Below are positions 31,772 to 42,132 of a stretch of DNA of 64,000 nucleotides, in pieces. The notes under the pieces are model-generated. The model saw only the letters and a program-made list of their open reading frames with translations, was not told the DNA's origin and did not search any database. The translations under genes were made by a program, and so were the position numbers. The DNA lies in the NCBI RefSeq assembly GCF_015751905.1, contig NZ_JADOUF010000001.1:1550001-1614000 (forward strand), read 5' to 3'. Position 1 is the stretch's first letter; each line of letters starts with the position of its first letter. The stretch is from Longispora fulva. Lineage in GTDB: Bacteria > Actinomycetota > Actinomycetes > Mycobacteriales > Micromonosporaceae.

Positions 31772-31815
31772 TCTGGTAACACGTCTCGAACCGCTCTTCG
31801 CAGCGGTTCTTTTTT
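31772..31815 (+). ncRNA. Candidate short antisense RNA over the helD leader
   Basis: A promoter-like sequence on the plus strand and a Rho-independent terminator define a possible transcript of about 44 nt with no coding capacity. It would be complementary to the helD 5' leader. This is a prediction from promoter and terminator spacing only. Confidence 0.35.
31788..31815 (+). terminator. Canonical intrinsic terminator
   Basis: GAACCGCT-CTTCGC-AGCGGTTC followed by six T residues; a perfect 8-bp stem with a U-tract, rare in DNA of this GC content. There is no plus-strand gene before it. On the minus strand the same repeat forms a hairpin in the helD leader. Confidence 0.75.
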
Positions 31816-31837: not shown

Positions 31838-32156
31838 CCCATGCCCGTCGCCCGGGGTGGCGTCGCCGGCCGACCCGGCTACTGGGCGACCCGCGACGGC
31901 GGGGACGTGCGTCCCGGCTCGGGACCCGTGGCAGATGTCGCGGAGAACCCGACGGCAGCGGCCGGTCACCCGCACCTGGTAGCCGCCCTCGAGGCGGGGC
32001 GTCGCGCGCCTGGCGCCCACATCGCCCCAGCTCCCAGGCTTACGCTCCGTCAAACCTCCCGAGGTGGTCGGATAGTCGACAATCGACTGATTGCTATGCC
32101 TTGGCTACGCTGGGAATCGGGAGACTCGCCACGGGGAGTAACGGACTGGGGGATCG
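31838..32156. other. Intergenic stretch between helD and the LuxR regulator
   Basis: No convincing gene. GC-rich to about 32035, then more AT-containing sequence with the LuxR promoter region (see 32074-32111). Frames that cross it lack ribosome binding sites and family similarity. Confidence 0.6.
32074..32111 (+). promoter_or_regulatory. Predicted promoter and operator of the lanthipeptide regulator
   Basis: TCGACT (32083-32088), 17-nt spacer, TACGCT (32106-32111). The -35 region is half of a palindrome AGTCGA-CAA-TCGACT (32074-32088), which could bind a regulator. The message would have a leader of about 40 nt before the TTG start at 32157. Confidence 0.45.
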
Positions 32157-32771
32157 TTGATTCGTACGGTGCTCGGACACGAGAGAGCGCTCTGGCGGGG
32201 AGCACTGAGAGCGATGCTCGCCCGGGAGCGCGATCTGATCGTGGTGGCCGAGGTGGGGCGCGGCGAGGATCTTCTGACCGTCGCCCTCCGTGAGCGGCCC
32301 GAGGTCGTGGTGCTCGACATCGCGCTCCCCGGCACCGTCGAGGTCGACGAGCTGTGCGTGACGCTCTGCGAGGAGTTACCCGACGCCGGGATCCTCGTCC
32401 TGGTCGACCGGCGGACCTCGGCGGCCATCGGGCCCGAACTCACCCGGCTCGCGCCCCGGGTCGGCTTCCTCGCCACCGACTCCTCGCCCCGCCAGCTCGT
32501 GGACGGTATCCGGGAACTCGCCCGGGGCAAGCCGGTGCTCGACATCGACATCGCCGTCGCCGCCCTGTCCGCGGAGAACAACCCGCTGACCAGCCGGGAA
32601 CGCGAGGTGCTCCGCAAGGCCGTGGACGGCGCGCCGGCCGGGGAGATCGCCGCGGAGCTGTTCCTGAGTACCGGCACGGTGCGCAACTACCTGTCCAGCG
32701 CGGTGTCGAAGACCGGCGGCCGCAACCGGATCGAGGCCATCCGGATCGCCCAGGACGCCGGCTGGGTCTGA
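32157..32771 (+). CDS. LuxR-type orphan response regulator, RamR/AmfR-like
   Basis: A 204-residue regulator with an N-terminal receiver-like domain (about 1-120) and a LuxR/NarL helix-turn-helix (about 138-200: LTSREREVLRKAVDGAPAGEIAAELFLSTGTVRNYLSSAVSKTGG in parts). The receiver is atypical. Asp54 (VVVLDIALPG) is kept, but the acidic pair near the N-terminus is replaced by GHE and the usual lysine is missing (GFLATDSS), so classical phosphorylation is doubtful. TTG 32157 has a GGGGGA ribosome binding site. Codon 74 is TTA (32376-32378), which in Streptomyces would make translation depend on the bldA tRNA. It is convergent with the lanthipeptide operon, as ramR/amfR regulators lie next to ramCSAB/amfTSBA. 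Confidence 0.85.
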   Translation: MIRTVLGHERALWRGALRAMLARERDLIVVAEVGRGEDLLTVALRERPEVVVLDIALPGTVEVDELCVTLCEELPDAGILVLVDRRTSAAIGPELTRLAPRVGFLATDSSPRQLVDGIRELARGKPVLDIDIAVAALSAENNPLTSREREVLRKAVDGAPAGEIAAELFLSTGTVRNYLSSAVSKTGGRNRIEAIRIAQDAGWV

Positions 32772-32776
32772 CCACC

Positions 32777-32797
32777 GGCCCGACGGCGGGTCGGGCC
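32777..32797 (+). terminator. Hairpin after the LuxR regulator
   Basis: GGCCCGAC-GGCGG-GTCGGGCC, a perfect 8-bp stem starting 5 nt after the stop codon. Confidence 0.6.
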
Positions 32798-32885
32798 CGC
32801 CACGGTCGTCGGGTCGCCTGCGCCGGGTGGGTCGATGCGGCCCGGCCGCCGCTGTGGGAGGTGTCGATCCCGTCCGTTGTCCGGT

Positions 32886-34574
32886 TCAGGGGGCCGGCTG
32901 GGTCTGGCCGGCCCGCCAGTGCCCGAGGAGTTCGCGGTACAGCGGGGACGCCGCCAGCACCGTGTCGTGGTCCCCGACCGCGGCGGTCACCCCGTCGAGG
33001 ACCAGCACCCGGCGGGCCCGCGACGCGGAGCTGATCCGGTGCGCGATCACCACCACGGTCCCGCCGCGCGCCGCGAACGCCTCCTCCGCCCGGCGCTCCG
33101 CCTCCGCGTCGAGGTGGCAGGTGGCCTCGTCGAGGACGACGACGGGCGCGTCGGCCAGGTACGCCCGGACCAGGGCGAGCAGCTGGCGTTCCCCGGCGGA
33201 CAGGCTGGCGGGGGACAGGAGGGCGGAGTAGCCGCCGAGGCGGGCCAGTAACGCGTCTGCGCCGAGCGCGGCCACCGCGTCGTCGAGCAGGGGGGCGCTG
33301 GCGTCGGGGCGCAGGTAGCGCAGGTTCTCCCCGACGGTGCCGGTGAAGACGTACGCCTCCTGGGGGATCAGGACCCGCTGGTCGGTCCGCAAGGCCGTGA
33401 CGGTGCCGGCGTCGGGGGCGCGCAGACCGCAGAGCAGGCCGGCCAGCGTGGACTTCCCGATCCCGCTCGGGCCGACGACGGCGAGGTGGTCACCCTCGGG
33501 GATGTCGAGGTCCAGGTCGCGCAGCACGGGTTCGGAGTGCGGCCCGTAGGCGAACGTGACGCCGCGCAGCCGGATCCCGCCCTCCCGCACGGAACCCGGG
33601 CCGGCCGGGCGCGGCGTGGACCCACTGTCCGGAGTGGACGTGTGGCCGGCGTCCAGGATCCGGCCCAGGGTGACCACGAACCGCAGGCCGCCGCCGCCCA
33701 GCCCGTTCACCAGCGCGCCCAGCGCCGGCTGCAGCCCGACCAGCACGTACGTCAGCGCGCCGAGCAGCGCGCCGGCCGTCAGGCCCCGCCCCACCAGCCA
33801 CGGCCCGGCCGCGAGCAGCACCAGCAGCGGACCCCACCCGCCCACGGCGAGACACAGGGTCCGCAGCGCGCCGACCCGGGCCAGCGCCAGCTCGGCCGCC
33901 GCCTGCTCGGCCACCGGGCGGCCGACCAGCGCCGCCGCGTGGTCCTCGGCGCCGACCCCTGTGACGTCGCGCAACCCGGCGAGCACGGCACCGGCGGCGC
34001 CGGCCAGCCGCTCGTCGGAACGGACGTACGCGCGCTGCCGGCCGGTCGCCACGCCCAGGGTGGCCAGGAACGCGCCGAGTCCGAGCAGGAACGGCGGCCC
34101 GACCAGCACCCCGACCACCGGCGCGGTGGAGGCCAGGCCGACGGTCGCCCCCACGGCGGTGACGACGAAGCCGCGCACGACGACGACCAGGCCGGCGTAC
34201 GTGTCGCGGACGATCTCCACCTGGTGGGTCAGCCGGGCCACGGCCCCGTCGTCGGGGCGGCCGGCGACGCCCCGGCGCAGCGCTCCGCGCACCACGTGCC
34301 GGACGAGGTCGTCGCGGAACGGCTCGACCAGGTCCCCGAGCCGCCGGTACACCTGTCGGGCCCCGAGCGCGCCGACCCCGGCGGCCCCCAGGAGTGCGGC
34401 GAGCCAGGCGAGCCCGACGAGCGGCCGGCCGGCGAGGAAACCGGCGTCCACGGCCCGGGCCACGGCCAGGCCGGACAGGGCCGCGGGCACCGCCTCGGGC
34501 ACCGACCAGGCGAGGAACGCCGCCGTGGGCCGGCGCCGCAGCGCCGCTAGCGCGTACCGCACCTCGCGCCTCAC
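32886..34574 (-). CDS. ABC exporter half-transporter of the lanthipeptide cluster (second)
   Basis: A 562-residue membrane-ATPase fusion. The transmembrane domain spans about 1-310 (six helices) and the nucleotide-binding domain about 340-560. Motifs are VVGPSGIGKSTLAGLL (Walker A), a Q-loop near LIPQEAYVF, LSAGERQLLALVRAYL (signature) and VVVLDEATCHLD (Walker B). It probably forms a heterodimer with the upstream ABC protein to export the lanthipeptide, as AmfA/AmfB and RamA/RamB do. GTG 34574 overlaps the stop of the first ABC gene (GTGA), so the two are coupled. It is the last gene of the operon, convergent with the LuxR gene. Confidence 0.88.
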   Translation of the reverse strand: MRREVRYALAALRRRPTAAFLAWSVPEAVPAALSGLAVARAVDAGFLAGRPLVGLAWLAALLGAAGVGALGARQVYRRLGDLVEPFRDDLVRHVVRGALRRGVAGRPDDGAVARLTHQVEIVRDTYAGLVVVVRGFVVTAVGATVGLASTAPVVGVLVGPPFLLGLGAFLATLGVATGRQRAYVRSDERLAGAAGAVLAGLRDVTGVGAEDHAAALVGRPVAEQAAAELALARVGALRTLCLAVGGWGPLLVLLAAGPWLVGRGLTAGALLGALTYVLVGLQPALGALVNGLGGGGLRFVVTLGRILDAGHTSTPDSGSTPRPAGPGSVREGGIRLRGVTFAYGPHSEPVLRDLDLDIPEGDHLAVVGPSGIGKSTLAGLLCGLRAPDAGTVTALRTDQRVLIPQEAYVFTGTVGENLRYLRPDASAPLLDDAVAALGADALLARLGGYSALLSPASLSAGERQLLALVRAYLADAPVVVLDEATCHLDAEAERRAEEAFAARGGTVVVIAHRISSASRARRVLVLDGVTAAVGDHDTVLAASPLYRELLGHWRAGQTQPAP

Positions 34575-36403
34575 GTCGGGAACACCGCCCGGTAGCCGGG
34601 GTCCGACCACAGGGCGTCATGCGGGCCGACGCCCCGGACCCGGCCGTCCTCCAGCCACACGACGAGATCCGCCCGGGCCGCCGTGGACACGCGGTGGGTG
34701 ACGATCAGACGGGTACGGTGCCCGTGGTCCTCGGTGAGCGTCCGACTGATCCGCATCTCGGTGACCATGTCCAGGCTGGACGTCGCGTCGTCGAGGACGA
34801 GGAGCCGGCCGGCGTGCCAGGCCCGGGCCAGGCCGAGCCGCTGGGCCTCGCCGCCGGACATCGGGGCGTCGGCGAGCGCCGTGCCGTAGCCCCGGGGGAG
34901 CCGGGTAACGAAGTCGTGGGAACTGGTGGCGTGGGTCGCGGCGAGGACCCGGGCCGGGCCACGGCCCATGCCGACGGCGTCGGCGACGGTGTCCCCGACG
35001 AGGACGGGCCGCTCGAACGCGCTGGCGACAGCCGCCCGCAGGGCGGAGTGCCGCAGCTCGGGGAGTGGCACGCCGTCGAGGAGCACGGTGCCGGAGTCCG
35101 GGTCGCGCAGCCGGGCGGCGAGCGCGGCCAGGACCGACTTGCCGGCCCCCGACCGGCCGACGACCGCCACGGCCGAGCCCCCGGGCACGTCCACGGTGAT
35201 CCCGTCGAGGACCATCCGAGGCCCTGACGACCGGTCCACCAACGAGTCCACCCCGCTCGGCCCGGCCCCGCTCGGCCCGGCCCCGCTCGGCCCGGAACCC
35301 GAAGGCGCGGTGCTGGACGGCGCGAAGCGGGACGCGGCGGAGTCACGTCGTGTGGACGCGGACGGCGGGGGCGGGGTGTCCGCGCGCACCGTGACGTCGA
35401 CGAACTGGAGGCGGCCCGGGCCGGGGGGCAGGTCGCGTGCGCCGTGGGTCGCCGGGGTGAGCGTGAGGACCTCCTCCAGCCGGGCGGCCCCGGCCCGCGC
35501 CCGGGCCAGGCGGCCGAGGAGTCCGGTGAGCCCGCCGAGGCCGGCGCCCTGCACGGCGTACTGGCCCGCGGCGAACAGGTCGCCCGCCGTGATCCGGCCT
35601 GCGGCGAGGGCCAGGCCCCCGGTGGCCAGGACGGCGACGAGGACCAGGGGGCCGACGAGCGCGCCCTGGGCAGCGGTGCCGGCCAGGACGTGCCAGGCGC
35701 GTACCCCGTGCCGGCGCAGCTCGACCAACGGTCCCAGCACCCGGGTCTCCTCCCGGTGTGCGGTGCCGGCCGCGGCGATCGTGCGGGCCCCGGCGAGGGC
35801 TTCGGCGAGCCGGCCGGCGATCCGGCCCTGGGCCTCCTGGTAGAGCCGGGCGGCCTCCGTGGTGCGCCGGGTGAACGTGCGCAGGACGAGTGCGACGAGG
35901 CCCAGCCCGGCGAGGAACGCCCCGGCCAGCCACGGGTCGAGCACGGCGAGGAGGACGAGGCTGCCGGCCGGGGGCAGCACGGCCGCGACCAGCAGCACGA
36001 GCGCGGGGCCGGCGTGCGCGGCCGAGGCTGCGCCGGAGGACACCCGGGTCACCAGGTCGCCGGGCGCGAACGGCCGGGCCGGCCCGGGGCCGAGGTCGAG
36101 GACGTGCCGGACCAGGCGGCGGCGGAGCCTGGCCGTGGTGTCGGCGACGGAGGCCGCGCCGGCGTAGCCGCCGACGAGGTCGCAGGCGACGACCACCGCG
36201 ACGGCGAGCGCGGCCCAGCCGACCCATGACAGTCCGCGCGGAGACCTGTTCCCGCCGGCGACCAGGCCGTCGACCGCCAGACCCAGAACCCAGGGCAGCG
36301 CGAGCCGGGCGGCGCCCGCGCCGATCGCGGTCACCGCGACCAGCGACAGCCAGCCCGCACCGGCTCCCGCCCTGCGAGCCGCACCTCCGACCCCCACTGG
36401 CAT
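34571..36403 (-). CDS. ABC exporter half-transporter of the lanthipeptide cluster (first)
   Basis: A 610-residue ABC exporter with six transmembrane helices (about 15-300) and an ATPase domain (about 335-600): VVGRSGAGKSVLAALA (Walker A), MSGGEAQRLGLARAW (signature), LLVLDDATSSLD (Walker B; Asp replaces the usual catalytic Glu). Loss of that Glu is common in one partner of heterodimeric exporters. The linker before the ATPase has three GPSGA-type repeats from a tandem 15-bp DNA repeat. ATG 36403 has a GAGGAG ribosome binding site. It follows the precursor gene, with a strong hairpin between them. Confidence 0.88.
   Translation of the reverse strand: MPVGVGGAARRAGAGAGWLSLVAVTAIGAGAARLALPWVLGLAVDGLVAGGNRSPRGLSWVGWAALAVAVVVACDLVGGYAGAASVADTTARLRRRLVRHVLDLGPGPARPFAPGDLVTRVSSGAASAAHAGPALVLLVAAVLPPAGSLVLLAVLDPWLAGAFLAGLGLVALVLRTFTRRTTEAARLYQEAQGRIAGRLAEALAGARTIAAAGTAHREETRVLGPLVELRRHGVRAWHVLAGTAAQGALVGPLVLVAVLATGGLALAAGRITAGDLFAAGQYAVQGAGLGGLTGLLGRLARARAGAARLEEVLTLTPATHGARDLPPGPGRLQFVDVTVRADTPPPPSASTRRDSAASRFAPSSTAPSGSGPSGAGPSGAGPSGVDSLVDRSSGPRMVLDGITVDVPGGSAVAVVGRSGAGKSVLAALAARLRDPDSGTVLLDGVPLPELRHSALRAAVASAFERPVLVGDTVADAVGMGRGPARVLAATHATSSHDFVTRLPRGYGTALADAPMSGGEAQRLGLARAWHAGRLLVLDDATSSLDMVTEMRISRTLTEDHGHRTRLIVTHRVSTAARADLVVWLEDGRVRGVGPHDALWSDPGYRAVFPT
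35251..35295 (-). repeat. Three perfect 15-bp tandem repeats in the ABC linker
   Basis: Unit CCCCGCTCGGCCCGG three times in a row without change. In the gene it encodes a Gly-Pro-Ser-Gly-Ala repeat between the membrane and ATPase domains. Copy number may vary by slippage. Confidence 0.85.
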
Positions 36404-36424
36404 CTAGACTCCTCGATACGGGCC

Positions 36425-36459
36425 GTGGCCCCGGGCGAGCGACAATCGCCCGGGGCCAC
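36425..36459 (-). terminator. Strong hairpin between precursor and exporter genes
   Basis: Perfect 14-bp stem GTGGCCCCGGGCGA / TCGCCCGGGGCCAC with a 7-nt loop, starting 19 nt after the precursor stop and ending 21 nt before the exporter start. No U-tract. It may partly terminate transcription or protect the precursor mRNA end, raising precursor over exporter output. Confidence 0.7.
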
Positions 36460-36478
36460 GGTCGGGTGCGCGGTGGTG

Positions 36479-36595
36479 CTAGTCGCAGAGCAGCACGCTG
36501 AGGCCGCTCTCGCCGCACAGCGCGACGCTCAGGTTGCTGCCGCCGTGGCCGTGCTCGGGGGCGGTGGTCAGGCCCTGCAGGTCGAGAAGTGTCAT
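36479..36595 (-). CDS. lanA: Class III lanthipeptide precursor, SapB/AmfS-like
   Basis: A 38-residue peptide. The leader has the LLDLQGL motif (residues 3-9) that recruits class III synthetases; a His/Gly-rich stretch follows. The core SNLSVALCGESGLSVLLCD holds two SxxSxxxC units: Ser20, Ser23, Cys27 and Ser30, Ser33, Cys37. This is the pattern of SapB, where each unit gives one lanthionine ring and dehydroalanine residues. Ring-forming residues have the same spacing as SapB, while the residues between them differ. The gene lies 22 nt after lanKC with a strong GAAGGAG ribosome binding site. The product would be an amphipathic surface-active peptide for aerial growth; labionin instead of lanthionine rings cannot be excluded from sequence. 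Confidence 0.92.
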   Translation of the reverse strand: MTLLDLQGLTTAPEHGHGGSNLSVALCGESGLSVLLCD

Positions 36596-36617
36596 CGGAT
36601 TCTCCTTCGAGGGATTC

Positions 36618-39185
36618 TCAGTGACCCGCGCCGGTCGGCGCGGGGGTCTGTGGGGCCGGCGCCGGGCGCGGCCAGGGGGAGAGCAGAGGCGCGTGCACGG
36701 GCTCGTCGTGCAGGACGGCGCCGAGGGCGAGCAGCACGCCGGCCGTGCCGGTGGCCAGGTCCATCGACAGCCGCAGCAGCGCGGTGCCCGGGAAGGCCGT
36801 CCCGCCGCCGTGCGGCAGCGCGTGCCAGTCGAGGCCGCGCACCTGCCGGGCGACGTCCGGGTCGGTCCGCGGGTCCGGCGACCGGCCGGCCAGGTAGAGC
36901 AGGATCCCGGCCCGACCGGTGAAGAGGCCCGGCAGGACGTACATCGGGGAGCGGGCCGCCAGCGCCACGCCCCGGCTGGCCGCGGCGAACTCCTCGTCGG
37001 CGCGCCGGGCCAGGTACCCGTCGAGCACCAGCCCGATCCCCACGCTGCCCACGTCGAGGTACGGGTTCGTCCGCCACCCCTCGTCGACCTCCAGCACCCC
37101 GGAGGGCCGCACGGAGCACCGCGCGAGGTCCTGGCGCAGGGCCGTGGCCGCGTGGTCGAGATACCCGGTGTCCCCGGTGTCGTCGTAGGCCCGCAGGAAC
37201 AGCAGCGCCCGGCCGGCCCCGCCGCGCATCAGCCCGACCCCGGAACCGGCCCGGCCCCCGGCGGCCCGGTCCGCGACGAGCTCCGCCGCCCGGTGCGCCA
37301 CCGCCCGCAGCGACGGCTCCCCGGTCCGGTCGGCGAGGTGCAACAGGTTCAGGCCGACGCCGGCGAGGCCGCCGAACAGGTCGGCGGGCAGTCGTTCCCA
37401 GTGTTCGCGGAGGAAGACGTCGACGGCGTCGAGCGCCTCCTGGCGGTACCCGAGGTGGTCCAGGGTGAACGCCGCGCCGTGCAGGCCGTCGTACAGGCCC
37501 AGGCGGGTGCCCGGCGCCGGGGTGCGGACCCGGCGGACCAGCCAGTCCTCGCACCGCTGGTGGCGGCCGGCGCCGGTCGCCGACAGCGCGTGCAGCACTC
37601 CGGCCGCGCCGTACGCCAGGCCCAGGCCGCCCACCTCGAACTGCCCGATGTCGCCGGGGAACAGCCGGTCGTCGCGCTCCGGGGTCGCGCTGGCCACGAT
37701 GGACCGGGCGAGGTCGGCGCGCAGGGTCGGCCAGCCGGCCGGGTCGGGTTCGATCCGGGCCAGGGGCGCCACCGGCAGCCCGGGCGGGGCGATCACCTCG
37801 ACGGCGCGGGCGAGGAACGTCGGCGGTACCGGGAAATGGTCCTGGATGATCTCGGCGTGCCGCCGGGCCTTGGGCCGGTGCAGCCACAGGAGGTTCGTCA
37901 TCGGCAGGAACAGGGCGAGGCGCAGGCAGGCCAGGGAGTACAGGTCCAGGTCGACGCCGGTGACGCCGCGCGGGGCCGCGAAGCCCTGATTGCCGAGGCC
38001 GGCGCGGGTGGAGTCCTCCACGAAGGACGCCACCTCGAAGTCCAGCAGGGTCACCGGACCGTCGCCGACCAGCACGTTGAACAGGTGCAGGTCGCCGTAG
38101 ACCACGCCCCGGGCGTGCACGGCGGCCAGGGTCTCGGAGACCTGCCGGTGCACGTCCATGGCCCAGTCGGTGTAGCGGGCCCGGTCCCCGGCGTCGGCCG
38201 TCGGGTCGATCAGGGGGTAGCGCCGGACGATCTCGGAGCTGAGCACCGTGCCCTCGACGTACTCCATCACCAGGAACCGGTGCTCGCCGAGCGTGAACAG
38301 GTCGTGCGCGCGCGGGATCCCTGGGATGCCGTCGAGCCGGCGGAGCATCGCGTACTCGTGCTCCACCCGGCGGACCGCGTCGTGTCCCCAGGCGTCCAGC
38401 CCCGAGTGCGGCCGGCCCTCCTTGAGCACCACCCGCGCGCCGGTCCGGGCGTCCAGCCCGGTGTAGACGCCGCCGCCGTTGGAGAAGTGCAGCACCCCGT
38501 CGATCGTGTACGGCAGACCGGCGACCGTCACGGCGTCGCGCGCGGCCAGGTGCGGAGCGAGGAACCCGGGCAACGTGACCCAGTCCGGCACGTGGAACAC
38601 GGGGTCGCGCCGGTCGGCCACGAGCGTGCCGTCGGGGGCGCTGATCGCCGGCACCAGCTCGCCGTCGTCGCCGACCAGGTGGCGGCGGGCGAAGGCGCCG
38701 TAACGCACGTGCAACGGCCCGTTCCCCCACCGCAGGTCGGTCAGGATGGTGGGATTGGGCTCCCCGTCGAGCAGGGCCCCGAGCTCGGTGAGGATCGTCT
38801 CGCACGCGGCGTCGTCGGCCGGGTACAGGGTGACGAGCTTGCCGCTGTGCCCGCGCGGCGCGTACTTCGACACCCGGGCGGTGAGCGCGGCCCGGGACCG
38901 GAGGAACTTGAACCCGATGCCCCGCGGCACGCAGTAGTCCCACACCGCGTCGAGGATCCGGTCGGCGTTGTCCCGGGTCGCCGAGGCGTGGATCTTCCAG
39001 CCCTGCGGCGGCAACGCGGCGTCGGGGCGGCGGAAGACCAGCCAGTCGTCCTGTTCGGCGCGGGACCAGCCGGCCGGCAACGGGCGGTCGGCGGTCGCGA
39101 AGGACTGTCCGGCGGTCGCCGCGGAGTGCAGGGCGTCGTAGAAGGTCCGGTCCGCCAAGCAGTAACTCTCGTACCGTTCTGCCAT
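36618..39185 (-). CDS. lanKC: Class III lanthipeptide synthetase LanKC (RamC/AmfT type)
   Basis: An 855-residue three-domain enzyme. The N-terminal lyase-like domain spans about 1-215. The Ser/Thr kinase domain spans about 220-470: VVLKEGRPHSG lysine, catalytic loop GVVYGDLHLFNVLV, DFE in LLDFEVAS. The C-terminal LanC-like cyclase spans about 490-850, with Gly-rich helices (GLYDGLHGAAF, GGLAGVGLNLL, DVGSVGIGLVL, FTGRAGILLYL) but no Cys/His zinc ligands, which marks class III rather than class IV. It phosphorylates and eliminates Ser in the precursor, then forms the rings. ATG 39185 is chosen by similarity at MAERYESYCLADRTFYD; a 27-codon extension is possible. It heads the operon with the precursor and two ABC genes. 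Confidence 0.92.
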   Translation of the reverse strand: MAERYESYCLADRTFYDALHSAATAGQSFATADRPLPAGWSRAEQDDWLVFRRPDAALPPQGWKIHASATRDNADRILDAVWDYCVPRGIGFKFLRSRAALTARVSKYAPRGHSGKLVTLYPADDAACETILTELGALLDGEPNPTILTDLRWGNGPLHVRYGAFARRHLVGDDGELVPAISAPDGTLVADRRDPVFHVPDWVTLPGFLAPHLAARDAVTVAGLPYTIDGVLHFSNGGGVYTGLDARTGARVVLKEGRPHSGLDAWGHDAVRRVEHEYAMLRRLDGIPGIPRAHDLFTLGEHRFLVMEYVEGTVLSSEIVRRYPLIDPTADAGDRARYTDWAMDVHRQVSETLAAVHARGVVYGDLHLFNVLVGDGPVTLLDFEVASFVEDSTRAGLGNQGFAAPRGVTGVDLDLYSLACLRLALFLPMTNLLWLHRPKARRHAEIIQDHFPVPPTFLARAVEVIAPPGLPVAPLARIEPDPAGWPTLRADLARSIVASATPERDDRLFPGDIGQFEVGGLGLAYGAAGVLHALSATGAGRHQRCEDWLVRRVRTPAPGTRLGLYDGLHGAAFTLDHLGYRQEALDAVDVFLREHWERLPADLFGGLAGVGLNLLHLADRTGEPSLRAVAHRAAELVADRAAGGRAGSGVGLMRGGAGRALLFLRAYDDTGDTGYLDHAATALRQDLARCSVRPSGVLEVDEGWRTNPYLDVGSVGIGLVLDGYLARRADEEFAAASRGVALAARSPMYVLPGLFTGRAGILLYLAGRSPDPRTDPDVARQVRGLDWHALPHGGGTAFPGTALLRLSMDLATGTAGVLLALGAVLHDEPVHAPLLSPWPRPAPAPQTPAPTGAGH

Positions 39186-39217
39186 GCCGCGCCCCGATCC
39201 GATCGGCGGTGTCAACG

Positions 39218-39238
39218 ATTCCCATCTTTCGGGGGAAT
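39218..39238 (-). promoter_or_regulatory. Inverted repeat upstream of lanKC
   Basis: ATTCCC-N9-GGGAAT, 33 bp before the chosen lanKC start. A TACTGT hexamer on the minus strand (39252-39247) could be its -10 element. It may be a regulator site or leader hairpin; the evidence is only symmetry and position. Confidence 0.3.
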
Positions 39239-39371
39239 GGCGCGGCACAGTAGTGCGGTCCGTCATAGGGCGGATATGAATCGCTCACCGAAGATTCGTG
39301 GGTATTTCACGACCGCGAACGCGTTTAGAAACTCCTTCCGACGGTAACCTCCGCGACCATCCGCTGTGGAC

Positions 39372-40061
39372 TCAGCGCAGTCCCGGTCGGACCGTCAGGT
39401 CGGTGACCTCCGCGTCCCGGGGCAGGTCGAGGGCCGCCATCACCGCCGAGGCGACGCTGTCGGGCTGGATCCACTCCTCCGGCACGTAGTCGGCGCCCTC
39501 CTGCAGGTGCACCTTCTCCTGCATCGCCGTCGCGGTCCGCCCCGGGTACACGCTCGTGACCCGTACCCCGTTGCCGTGCTCCTCGGCGCGCAGGGCGTCG
39601 GCGAGGGCGCGCAGGCCGAACTTGCTCGCCGCGTACGCGCCCCAGCCGGCGTGCGCGGCGAGCCCGGCCCCGGAGTTGACGAGCACCACGTGGCCGGCCG
39701 CCGCGCGCAGCGCCGGCAGCGTCAGCCGGGTCAACTCCGCCGGTCCGGCCAGGTTCACCGCGAACATCGTCTGCCAGATCTCCGGATCCAGGTCGCCCAC
39801 CGGGCCCAGCTCCACCGCTCCGGCGCAGTGCACGAGCGCGTCGAGCCGGTCGGGCAGCAGGCCGGCCAGTTCGGCGGCGAGCTCCGTCGGCCGGCCCACG
39901 TCGGCGACGAGGACCTCGGTGCCGGGGAACTCCTTGGCCAGCGCGTCGAGCGCCGCCCCGTCCCGGCCGAGCAGGAAGAGCCTGTCCCCCCGGTCGTGCA
40001 GTCGTTGTGCGATGACCTTGCCGATACCGCCGGTGGCCCCGGTGAGCAGTGAGTTCGCCAT
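39372..40061 (-). CDS. Short-chain dehydrogenase/reductase
   Basis: A 229-residue classical SDR: TGATGGIGK (NADP-type Gly motif, about 8-16), VHCAGAVELG (NAG-like), a catalytic Ser in VLVNSGAG and YAASK (Tyr-x-x-x-Lys) at about 148-152. The substrate is not predictable from sequence. ATG 40061 is preceded by GGGG; an ATG three codons upstream is also possible. It is divergent from the SMP-30 gene (82 bp) and unrelated to the lanthipeptide operon by strand spacing. Confidence 0.85.
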   Translation of the reverse strand: MANSLLTGATGGIGKVIAQRLHDRGDRLFLLGRDGAALDALAKEFPGTEVLVADVGRPTELAAELAGLLPDRLDALVHCAGAVELGPVGDLDPEIWQTMFAVNLAGPAELTRLTLPALRAAAGHVVLVNSGAGLAAHAGWGAYAASKFGLRALADALRAEEHGNGVRVTSVYPGRTATAMQEKVHLQEGADYVPEEWIQPDSVASAVMAALDLPRDAEVTDLTVRPGLR

Positions 40062-40143
40062 GGACCCCATGATGCCAGCCGGCCCGGTCGGGTCCCTGGC
40101 AACTCCGTGGCAGTTGTCGGGCGCGCCGGCTAATGTCCCGACC

Positions 40144-41007
40144 ATGATCGACACCTACGTCCTGCCCGGCGACGGACTCTTCCCCGAGGGCATCACCGAG
40201 GACCCCGACGGCCGCACCTTCTACGTGTCCAGTTCCCGGAAGGGCACCCTTTTCCGGGGTACCACCGACCGGGCCGACCTTGAGGTCTGGCAGCCGGCCG
40301 GCGCCGACGGCCGGACCGGTGCGCTCGGCATGACGGTCGACGGGCACGGCCGGCTGCTGGTCTGCGGGTTCCGCACCGGCCACCTGTTCGCCTACGACCT
40401 GGCCACCGGCGAACTGGTCGCGCGGCGGACCGTGCCGGGGGACAAGGTCCTGCTCAACGACATCGTGGTGGCGGGCGGGCACGCCTACGTCACCGACTCC
40501 GAGCGCCCCGTGCTGTGGCGGTGGCCGGTGGGCGCGGAGATCGGCGAGCTGGAGGAGTGGCTGACGGTGCCGGACCCCGGCGCGCTGCCGTACCTCAACG
40601 GGATCGTCGCCGTGCACGACGGCGCGACGCTCCTGGTCGCGGCCCAGGGCACCGAGGTGCTGTGGCGGATCGACGTGGCCACCGGCGCGGCCGAGCGCGT
40701 GGAACTGGGCGGCCCGCTGGCCGCCGACGGCATGGTCGTGGCGGACGGCGCGCTGTTCACCTGCGACAACGTCGAGCTGCCCGACGGCACGGTGGAGTAC
40801 GCGGTCAGCCAGGTGGCACTGTCCGCCGACGCGCGCACGGGGAAGGTGACGCGGCGCTGGGTGCGGTCGGCGGCGGACACCCCGACCACGATCGCGTACC
40901 TGGGCGGCCGGATCCTGCAGGTCAACTCGCAGTTCGGTGCCGAGCGGGCCGGCACCGCCACCACCCCGTTCACTGTTAGGGCCCTGGACGTGACCGACAG
41001 TCACTAG
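40144..41007 (+). CDS. SMP-30/gluconolactonase-like beta-propeller protein
   Basis: A 287-residue six-bladed propeller-like protein without a signal peptide: LFPEGITEDPDGRTFYVSSSRKGTLFRG, LGMTVDGHGRLLVCG, LLNDIVVAGGHAYVTDS, LPYLNGIVAV and GPLAADGMVVADGALF. Metal-ligand positions of SMP-30 (Glu near 15, Asn in LLNDI, Asn in LNGI, Asp in AADGM) are present, so a lactonase-type hydrolase is reasonable. ATG 40144 lies 7 nt behind TAATGT, indicating a leaderless message. The peptidase gene follows 9 nt downstream with its own TAGGCT. Confidence 0.8.
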   Translation: MIDTYVLPGDGLFPEGITEDPDGRTFYVSSSRKGTLFRGTTDRADLEVWQPAGADGRTGALGMTVDGHGRLLVCGFRTGHLFAYDLATGELVARRTVPGDKVLLNDIVVAGGHAYVTDSERPVLWRWPVGAEIGELEEWLTVPDPGALPYLNGIVAVHDGATLLVAAQGTEVLWRIDVATGAAERVELGGPLAADGMVVADGALFTCDNVELPDGTVEYAVSQVALSADARTGKVTRRWVRSAADTPTTIAYLGGRILQVNSQFGAERAGTATTPFTVRALDVTDSH

Positions 41008-41016
41008 GCTGGCGGC

Positions 41017-42132
41017 GTGACCCACGACGCCGAGCTGTACCCGGCCGACCGGCTCGACCGGGCCCGCACGGCCGCCGTCGCCGCCGGGTACGACGCGCTG
41101 CTGATCTCGCCGGGCCCGGACCTGCGCTACCTGACCGGGTACGACGCCCAGCCCCTCGAACGCCTCACCTGCCTGGTCGTGCCGGCCGGCGGCGAGGCGT
41201 TCCTCGTCGTGCCCCAGCTGGAGCGGCCGGCCGCCGCGGCGTCGCCGGTCGGCGGGCTGGGGATCGAGATCGCCGGCTGGGCGGAGACCGACGACCCGTT
41301 CCAGCTGGTCGCGGCCCGGTTGCCGGCCGGACTGGGCCGGGTGGCCGTGGACAACCACATGTGGGCGGAGAAGGTGATGGCCTTCCGGGGCGCGCTGCCC
41401 GGGGTCGACCAGGGCCTGGCCGGCGACGTGCTCAGCGGGCTGCGGATCCGCAAGTCCGCGGCCGAGGTGGCCGCGCTGCGCCGGGCCGGGGCGGCCATCG
41501 ACCGGGTGCACTCCCGGATGGCCGACTGGCTGCGCGCCGGCCGCACCGAGCGGGAGGTGGCCCGCGACATCGCCGAGGCCATCCTCGCCGAGGGGCACGC
41601 GCGGGTGGACTTCGTGATCGTCGCGTCCGGCCCGAACGGGGCCAGCCCGCACCACGAGGTGTCCGACCGGGTGGTCGCCGACGGCGACCCGGTGGTGGTG
41701 GACATCGGCGGCACCATGCCCGACGGGTACTGCTCGGACTCCACCCGCACCTACGCCGTCGGCCGGCCGCCGGACGACTTCACCGACTACTACGACGTGC
41801 TGCTGCGTGCCCAGACCGCCCAGACCGCCGCTGTGCGGCCCGGGGTGACGGCCGAGGTGCTCGACGCGATCGGCCGGGACATCATCGACACCGCCGGCTA
41901 CGGGAAGAACTTCATCCACCGCACCGGCCACGGCATCGGCCTCCAGACGCACGAGGAGCCGTACATCGTGGCCGGCTCGACGCTGCCGCTGGAGCCGGGG
42001 ATGGCGTTCTCCGTGGAGCCCGGCATCTACCTGCCGGGCCGCCACGGGGCGCGGATCGAGGACATCGTGGTGTGCACGGAGACCGGCGGCGAACGCCTCA
42101 ACGTCACCGGGCGGGATCTGGCGCTGCTGTAG
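41017..42132 (+). CDS. M24 family Xaa-Pro aminopeptidase/dipeptidase
   Basis: A 371-residue cytoplasmic peptidase with a creatinase-like N-terminal domain (about 10-135) and pita-bread catalytic domain (about 140-365). Metal ligands are visible: Asp in VVVDIGG and CSDSTRT, His in RTGHGIGLQTHEEP, Glu in AFSVEPGIYL and RIEDIVV. It removes N-terminal residues next to proline. GTG 41017 lies 6 nt after TAGGCT, which overlaps the end of the preceding gene, so it can be read as a leaderless message as well as by read-through. Its 3' end overlaps the convergent FAD gene by 29 bp. Confidence 0.9.
   Translation: MTHDAELYPADRLDRARTAAVAAGYDALLISPGPDLRYLTGYDAQPLERLTCLVVPAGGEAFLVVPQLERPAAAASPVGGLGIEIAGWAETDDPFQLVAARLPAGLGRVAVDNHMWAEKVMAFRGALPGVDQGLAGDVLSGLRIRKSAAEVAALRRAGAAIDRVHSRMADWLRAGRTEREVARDIAEAILAEGHARVDFVIVASGPNGASPHHEVSDRVVADGDPVVVDIGGTMPDGYCSDSTRTYAVGRPPDDFTDYYDVLLRAQTAQTAAVRPGVTAEVLDAIGRDIIDTAGYGKNFIHRTGHGIGLQTHEEPYIVAGSTLPLEPGMAFSVEPGIYLPGRHGARIEDIVVCTETGGERLNVTGRDLALL

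Follow-up and report, generated by a model that had tools for sequence, protein, structure and literature searches.

How did a locus whose precursor peptide carries the two-ring layout of SapB come to hold a synthetase from a lineage in which precursors have three ring units? The locus lies in a 64,000-nucleotide stretch of Longispora fulva (contig NZ_JADOUF010000001.1, positions 1,550,001 to 1,614,000), referred to here as the window and used for all coordinates below; the host genome is one contig of 8,676,660 bases. It is an intact and ordinary gene cluster of the SapB/AmfS family, to which a likely three-unit origin is added here. As judged from sequence comparison, the locus very probably makes a two-unit class III lanthipeptide of this family and descends from a stackepeptin-like three-unit ancestor that lost its N-terminal unit, so that its resemblance to the two-ring layout of SapB would be secondary. 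The argument turns on two genes.

36618..39266, minus strand: lanKC, class III lanthionine synthetase, 882 amino acids (NF038151, PF25816, PF00069, PF05147 and PDB alignments)
36479..36595, minus strand: lanA, 38-codon precursor gene (translation, PF19402 and NF033212)

The precursor gene translates to MTLLDLQGLTTAPEHGHGGSNLSVALCGESGLSVLLCD, in which an LLDLQ leader motif is followed by two SxxSxxxC units, as had been read from the DNA in the original prediction of a 38-residue precursor, and neither the leader motif nor any ring residue of either unit has been lost. Both curated models recognise it well above chance, the Pfam RamS model (PF19402) at 52.9 bits (cut-off 24.3) and the NCBIfam SapB/AmfS model (NF033212) at 52.1 bits (cut-off 25), and it is the only PF19402 match in the host genome (E <= 0.001). 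Since standard family models pick up lanA, its description as easily missed was overstated. The synthetase LanKC contains the RamC N-terminal region, the kinase and the LanC-like cyclase (PF25816, PF00069, PF05147), and reaches 1063 bits against the class III equivalog NF038151 (cut-off 575) and 354 bits against the class IV LanL model, which is under the cut-off of 650. It aligns to the PDB LanKC entries 8sam (residues 72-858) and 8sao (residues 74-858), and its kinase region to 7wj6. With the precursor passing both curated models and LanKC the class III model, the proposed SapB/AmfS-family membership is borne out.

The lineage of the locus was examined in 150 evenly drawn genomes from the host's bacterial family, its own included, of which 59 held a LanKC match at E <= 1e-150. 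Of the 61 places found outside the window 59 were taken, with G022 and G152 omitted (matches split or truncated at contig ends), and one further region brought the total to sixty. Together with named loci these gave 67 relatives after exclusion of L081 (interrupted LanKC), L023 (partial match), the duplicate named loci L006, L010, L011 and L015, and those already among the regions (L004, L005, L009, L013, L020, L021, L022). The frame of L081, from genome G156, contains one in-frame TGA and is a pseudogene or the product of a sequencing error.

In a quick-search LanKC tree of 68 rows, the window is nested in successively larger sets of 12, 19 and 24 rows (Shimodaira-Hasegawa-like approximate likelihood ratio test, SH-aLRT, 100, 99 and 99); each of the 23 rows that share the largest set with it has a three-cysteine core. 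Precursor type follows synthetase identity: SapB-type cores (SRASLLLCGDSSLSVTTC and close variants) go with LanKC proteins 50-57% identical to that of the window, whereas closer relatives, from 58% up, have three-cysteine precursors, 17 loci with three strict SxxSxxxC units and six with a first unit shorter by one residue. One locus at 58% identity, L086, has two units and lies outside the 24-row set. SapB-type cores occupy a separate clade of 30 LanKC rows (29 of the 30; no precursor was found for L122), plus L089 and L018. The pattern search behind these assignments may miss unusual precursors, and gave none for L112, L120 and L122. A different precursor type, seen at L106, L108 and L123 in two or three copies, has STLT-x3-C and SNLS-x3-C units with a longer linker between them.

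The original prediction had treated the two-unit layout as direct kinship with SapB, and this is where it does not hold, the window LanKC lying inside the three-unit set and the SapB-type cores in a clade apart. If, as that prediction implied, the locus descended directly from a SapB-type cluster and kept two units throughout, this would account for the unit count, the C-x2-S linker and the spacing, which are as in SapB-type cores such as L018, and for the match of both curated SapB/RamS models to the precursor; it would also suit the position of L089, a locus with a SapB-type core, as the next branch outside the 24-row set. A careful LanKC tree of 36 rows (the 23 three-unit rows, the window and 12 two-unit rows chosen by the analyst) nevertheless rejects the arrangement in which the three-unit rows form a clade without the window (log-likelihood difference 89; approximately unbiased test, p-AU 1.4e-7). 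In a tree of the second exporter gene (ABC2, for ATP-binding cassette) with 17 of the 23 three-unit loci, the window falls in the same group (18 rows, 100/100). On the LanKC trees direct descent is very unlikely. As L089 branches next outside while the window nests in the three-unit set, two units are probably the older state overall, the three-unit state probably had a single origin in this part of the tree, and the window probably reverted to two. Although the precursor has two units, its synthetase belongs to the three-unit lineage; descent from the stackepeptin type is therefore apparent, but the locus is not classed as a stackepeptin-type one.

The units themselves indicate which of the three was lost. 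Across the 17 strict loci, the mean match of window unit 1 to units 1, 2 and 3 of the relatives is 3.0, 6.1 and 5.4 of eight residues, and that of window unit 2 is 3.0, 5.4 and 6.7. The best matches are thus to units 2 and 3, which means that the window keeps these two. Compared by eye with the SapB-type units SRASLLLC and SSLSVTTC, the window units share four and five of eight residues, a poorer match than the three-unit loci give with their units 2 and 3 and a further point against direct descent. The nearest comparison is Longispora albida DSM 44784 (L021, L024, L065), which has the same gene order, a LanKC 76% and a regulator 74% identical to those of the window, and a precursor of 48 residues with three units as opposed to 38 residues with two. 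The window precursor is shorter by nine residues between LLDLQ and the kept units and by one in the linker. Secondary loss of the N-terminal unit is the best reading of the two-ring layout; in the sequence of events proposed, a three-unit ancestor would have lost that unit on the way to the host species, leaving units 2 and 3.

Alternatively, lanA could have been swapped by recombination for the two-unit lanA of another cluster. Precursor genes are short and fast-evolving, which would make such a swap conceivable, but in the DNA alignment the core, the downstream stem and the spacing follow the same-genus locus L065, and the two units of the window occur in none of the surveyed two-unit loci, so that replacement is very unlikely. 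The shortened precursor might instead be a step in the decay of the whole cluster. One unit is indeed missing, and the interrupted LanKC frame of G156 offers a possible precedent for damage in the family, yet all five window frames (lanKC, lanA, the two ABC genes and the regulator) are open, the leader motif and ring residues are kept and the hairpin downstream of lanA is perfect; decay is accordingly very unlikely.

Several observations weigh against loss of the N-terminal unit from a three-unit ancestor, or leave its course less sharply drawn. With ABC2 by itself, a tree in which the window and the three-unit rows are sisters is not rejected (p-AU 0.073), so that this protein is compatible with direct descent. 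The quick LanKC tree leaves the order of the window, L. albida and the other ten rows of the innermost set unfixed, and the comparison within the genus covers only two genomes. The DNA alignment with L. albida fits a clean nine-codon deletion, but also a shorter one combined with decay of unit 1, including substitution of its cysteine. In addition, PMC11251773 groups SapB and stackepeptin in one subfamily with two to three cysteines. As variation in unit number is known from that source, what is added here is the direction in which this locus changed. No report of a lost ring unit was found in the literature on SapB/AmfS/stackepeptin-type peptides, which was covered in part, with most subscription papers outside the search.

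The likeness to stackepeptin is seen in Stackebrandtia nassauensis (L073, genome G046), in which stackepeptins were found (PMC6429369) and whose locus L073 we infer to be the stackepeptin locus. It shares with the window the 12-row LanKC set (SH-aLRT 100), the gene order and the convergent regulator, and its units 2 and 3 share six and seven of eight residues with the two window units (by eye). The differences are its three SxxSxxxC units against two and a LanKC identity of 65%. For SapB/AmfS of Streptomyces the comparison is with locus L018, which has two units, an LLDLQ or LFDLQ leader, the order KC-A-ABC-ABC and a convergent regulator; the ramCSAB-R and amf genes of S. coelicolor and S. griseus, whose SapB/AmfS loci are named in PMC13380574, were outside the set of compared loci. 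The L018 LanKC is about 50% identical to that of the window and lies outside the three-unit set, and next to it the two-unit layout of the window looks secondary.

The remaining features of the locus are as follows.

36423..36461, minus strand: hairpin with a 16-base-pair perfect stem, between lanA and the first exporter gene (folding and covariation)
34571..36403, minus strand: ABC exporter half 1, 610 amino acids (PF00664 and PF00005)
32886..34610, minus strand: ABC exporter half 2, 574 amino acids (PF00005)
32157..32771, plus strand: LuxR/GerE-type regulator, 204 amino acids, TTG start, convergent (GerE match)

The original prediction had placed the cluster at 32074-39266, and all the genes it named are present there and intact. 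It gave no strand; the operon is on the minus strand and only the regulator on the plus strand, and the boundary of 32074 lies 83 bases upstream of the regulator start. The paired ABC genes and the adjacent LuxR-type regulator are arranged as in the SapB/AmfS family. Provided that its GTG start is correct, ABC half 2 overlaps the end of half 1 by 40 bases; its membrane region gave no Pfam match, and it is 71% identical over 571 amino acids to the L. albida counterpart (L065). The regulator has a GerE match of 51 bits and an atypical receiver domain (22.2 bits, under the cut-off of 30.2).

The proposed likeness of the gene order to the ram and amf systems is supported. The order LanKC-ABC1-ABC2 on one strand was found in 57 of the 67 relatives, and three of the ten others are contigs ending within about 1 kb of lanKC. 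A homologue of the regulator is convergent and downstream in 50; in three it is placed otherwise (on the same strand in each, upstream in L066 and L067 and downstream in L113), in nine whose downstream sequence exceeds 5 kb it was not found, and five had less sequence. The Streptomyces locus L018, with a RamS-like precursor, has the same convergent layout and therefore supports the comparison with the ram system. At L088, L090 and L092 a SapB-type lanKC-lanA pair is directly followed by a convergent regulator, and no ABC1 or ABC2 homologue was detected at E <= 1e-8 within about 6 kb downstream.

From these genes a conventional route to the product can be proposed. LanKC would bind the LLDLQ leader, phosphorylate the serines of both SxxSxxxC units and eliminate water, and close lanthionine or labionin rings by adding each cysteine. 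Export would fall to the paired ABC proteins and control of the operon to the convergent LuxR-type protein. Both ring types are named, as which of the two results is hard to predict from the synthetase sequence (PMC13380574). Elsewhere in the host genome are two more lanthionine-synthetase-like proteins, L002 (G000:C1:2789265-2790386) and L003 (G000:C1:1936983-1938026), whose matched N-terminal stretches fit the class IV LanL model best (474 and 376 bits, partial matches under the cut-off of 650).

Whether the peptide still serves at the cell surface is a separate matter. A role in surface activity and aerial growth is plausible, given that the host genome has four chaplin matches, chaplins being matched in 94 of the 150 sampled genomes. 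Matches occur in 20 of 21 genomes with three-unit loci, the exception being G128 (86% complete), versus eight of the 26 genomes whose cores are SapB-type (Fisher p 5e-6), a split that follows clade lines and is therefore not independent evidence of linked function. Perhaps the product is made but is no morphogen and acts instead, for example, as an antibiotic-like or signalling peptide, which would be compatible with the loss of a unit from a three-unit ancestor. Carro et al. (PMC5765111) describe Micromonospora strains that form no aerial hyphae, with SapB-type clusters in nearly half of their genomes, in agreement with such a function; the chaplin matches of the host and the aerial mycelium that S. 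nassauensis, carrier of a three-unit relative, makes on some media (PMC3035245) stand against it, both indirectly, and on balance a non-morphogen is unlikely, though far from negligible. According to PMC13380574, where the SapB/AmfS annotation is said to cover more than 4,000 sequences, the S26T variant of the two-unit class III peptide durhapeptin induces aerial hyphae in some Streptomyces, though not in its own producer, in S. coelicolor or in S. griseus. For the morphology of Longispora the literature search gave nothing useful.

A more far-reaching proposal, offered tentatively, is that a three-ring stackepeptin-type morphogen lost its N-terminal unit and independently re-made the two-ring architecture of SapB with its function kept. 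If so, ring units would be modular and the N-terminal one dispensable. L. fulva and L. albida, two species of one genus that are one ring unit apart, would make the role of the extra ring testable and pose the question of whether one synthetase takes both lengths. For the annotation of such clusters, counts of ring motifs alone fail to place a cluster in its lineage.

Genes on the lanKC side were left out of the cluster. A 906-codon frame at 39325-42045 (minus strand), considered as a tailoring gene, had no family match and was rejected; it overlaps frames that have family matches and typical codon-position composition. Genes for a short-chain dehydrogenase, an M24 peptidase, an SGL-like protein and a flavin adenine dinucleotide (FAD) protein upstream were sought at E <= 1e-8 beside 72 other loci, most covered for about 2.5 kb upstream (short of the FAD gene), and 20 named loci, 17 of them about 19-23 kb long. 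No homologue of the M24 peptidase, SGL-like or FAD genes was found in these 72 and 20 loci, and the only two short-chain dehydrogenase matches are in L111 (36%, downstream of its lanKC) and L022 (28%, more than 5 kb upstream). Being nearly absent beside the loci of relatives, the four genes were rejected as cluster members.

Stems like the one between lanA and the first exporter gene occur after lantibiotic precursor genes. The window hairpin has a seven-base loop in addition to its perfect stem, and the folding energy of the intergenic strand is -42.5 kcal/mol (z -4.13), a value that none of 200 shuffles equals. Counting the window, 60 loci have a recognised precursor; 46 of them show a stem of at least 12 base pairs within 140 bases, compared with 16 of 200 base shuffles made from five of these loci. 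In eight loci chosen for similar stems, a choice that favours structure, both sides changed in seven of 16 pairs, and pairing holds in 96.9% of cells; four of five covariation measures exceed shuffles, and that of further pair types does not (206/500 as high). The hairpin may be an attenuator acting by partial termination or a 3'-end stabiliser of the lanA message, roles that are proposed with reserve because no T-run follows the window stem. Consensus promoter scans gave none near lanA or the regulator. Upstream of the regulator, on the plus strand at 31788-31809, there is a terminator-like hairpin with a T-run.

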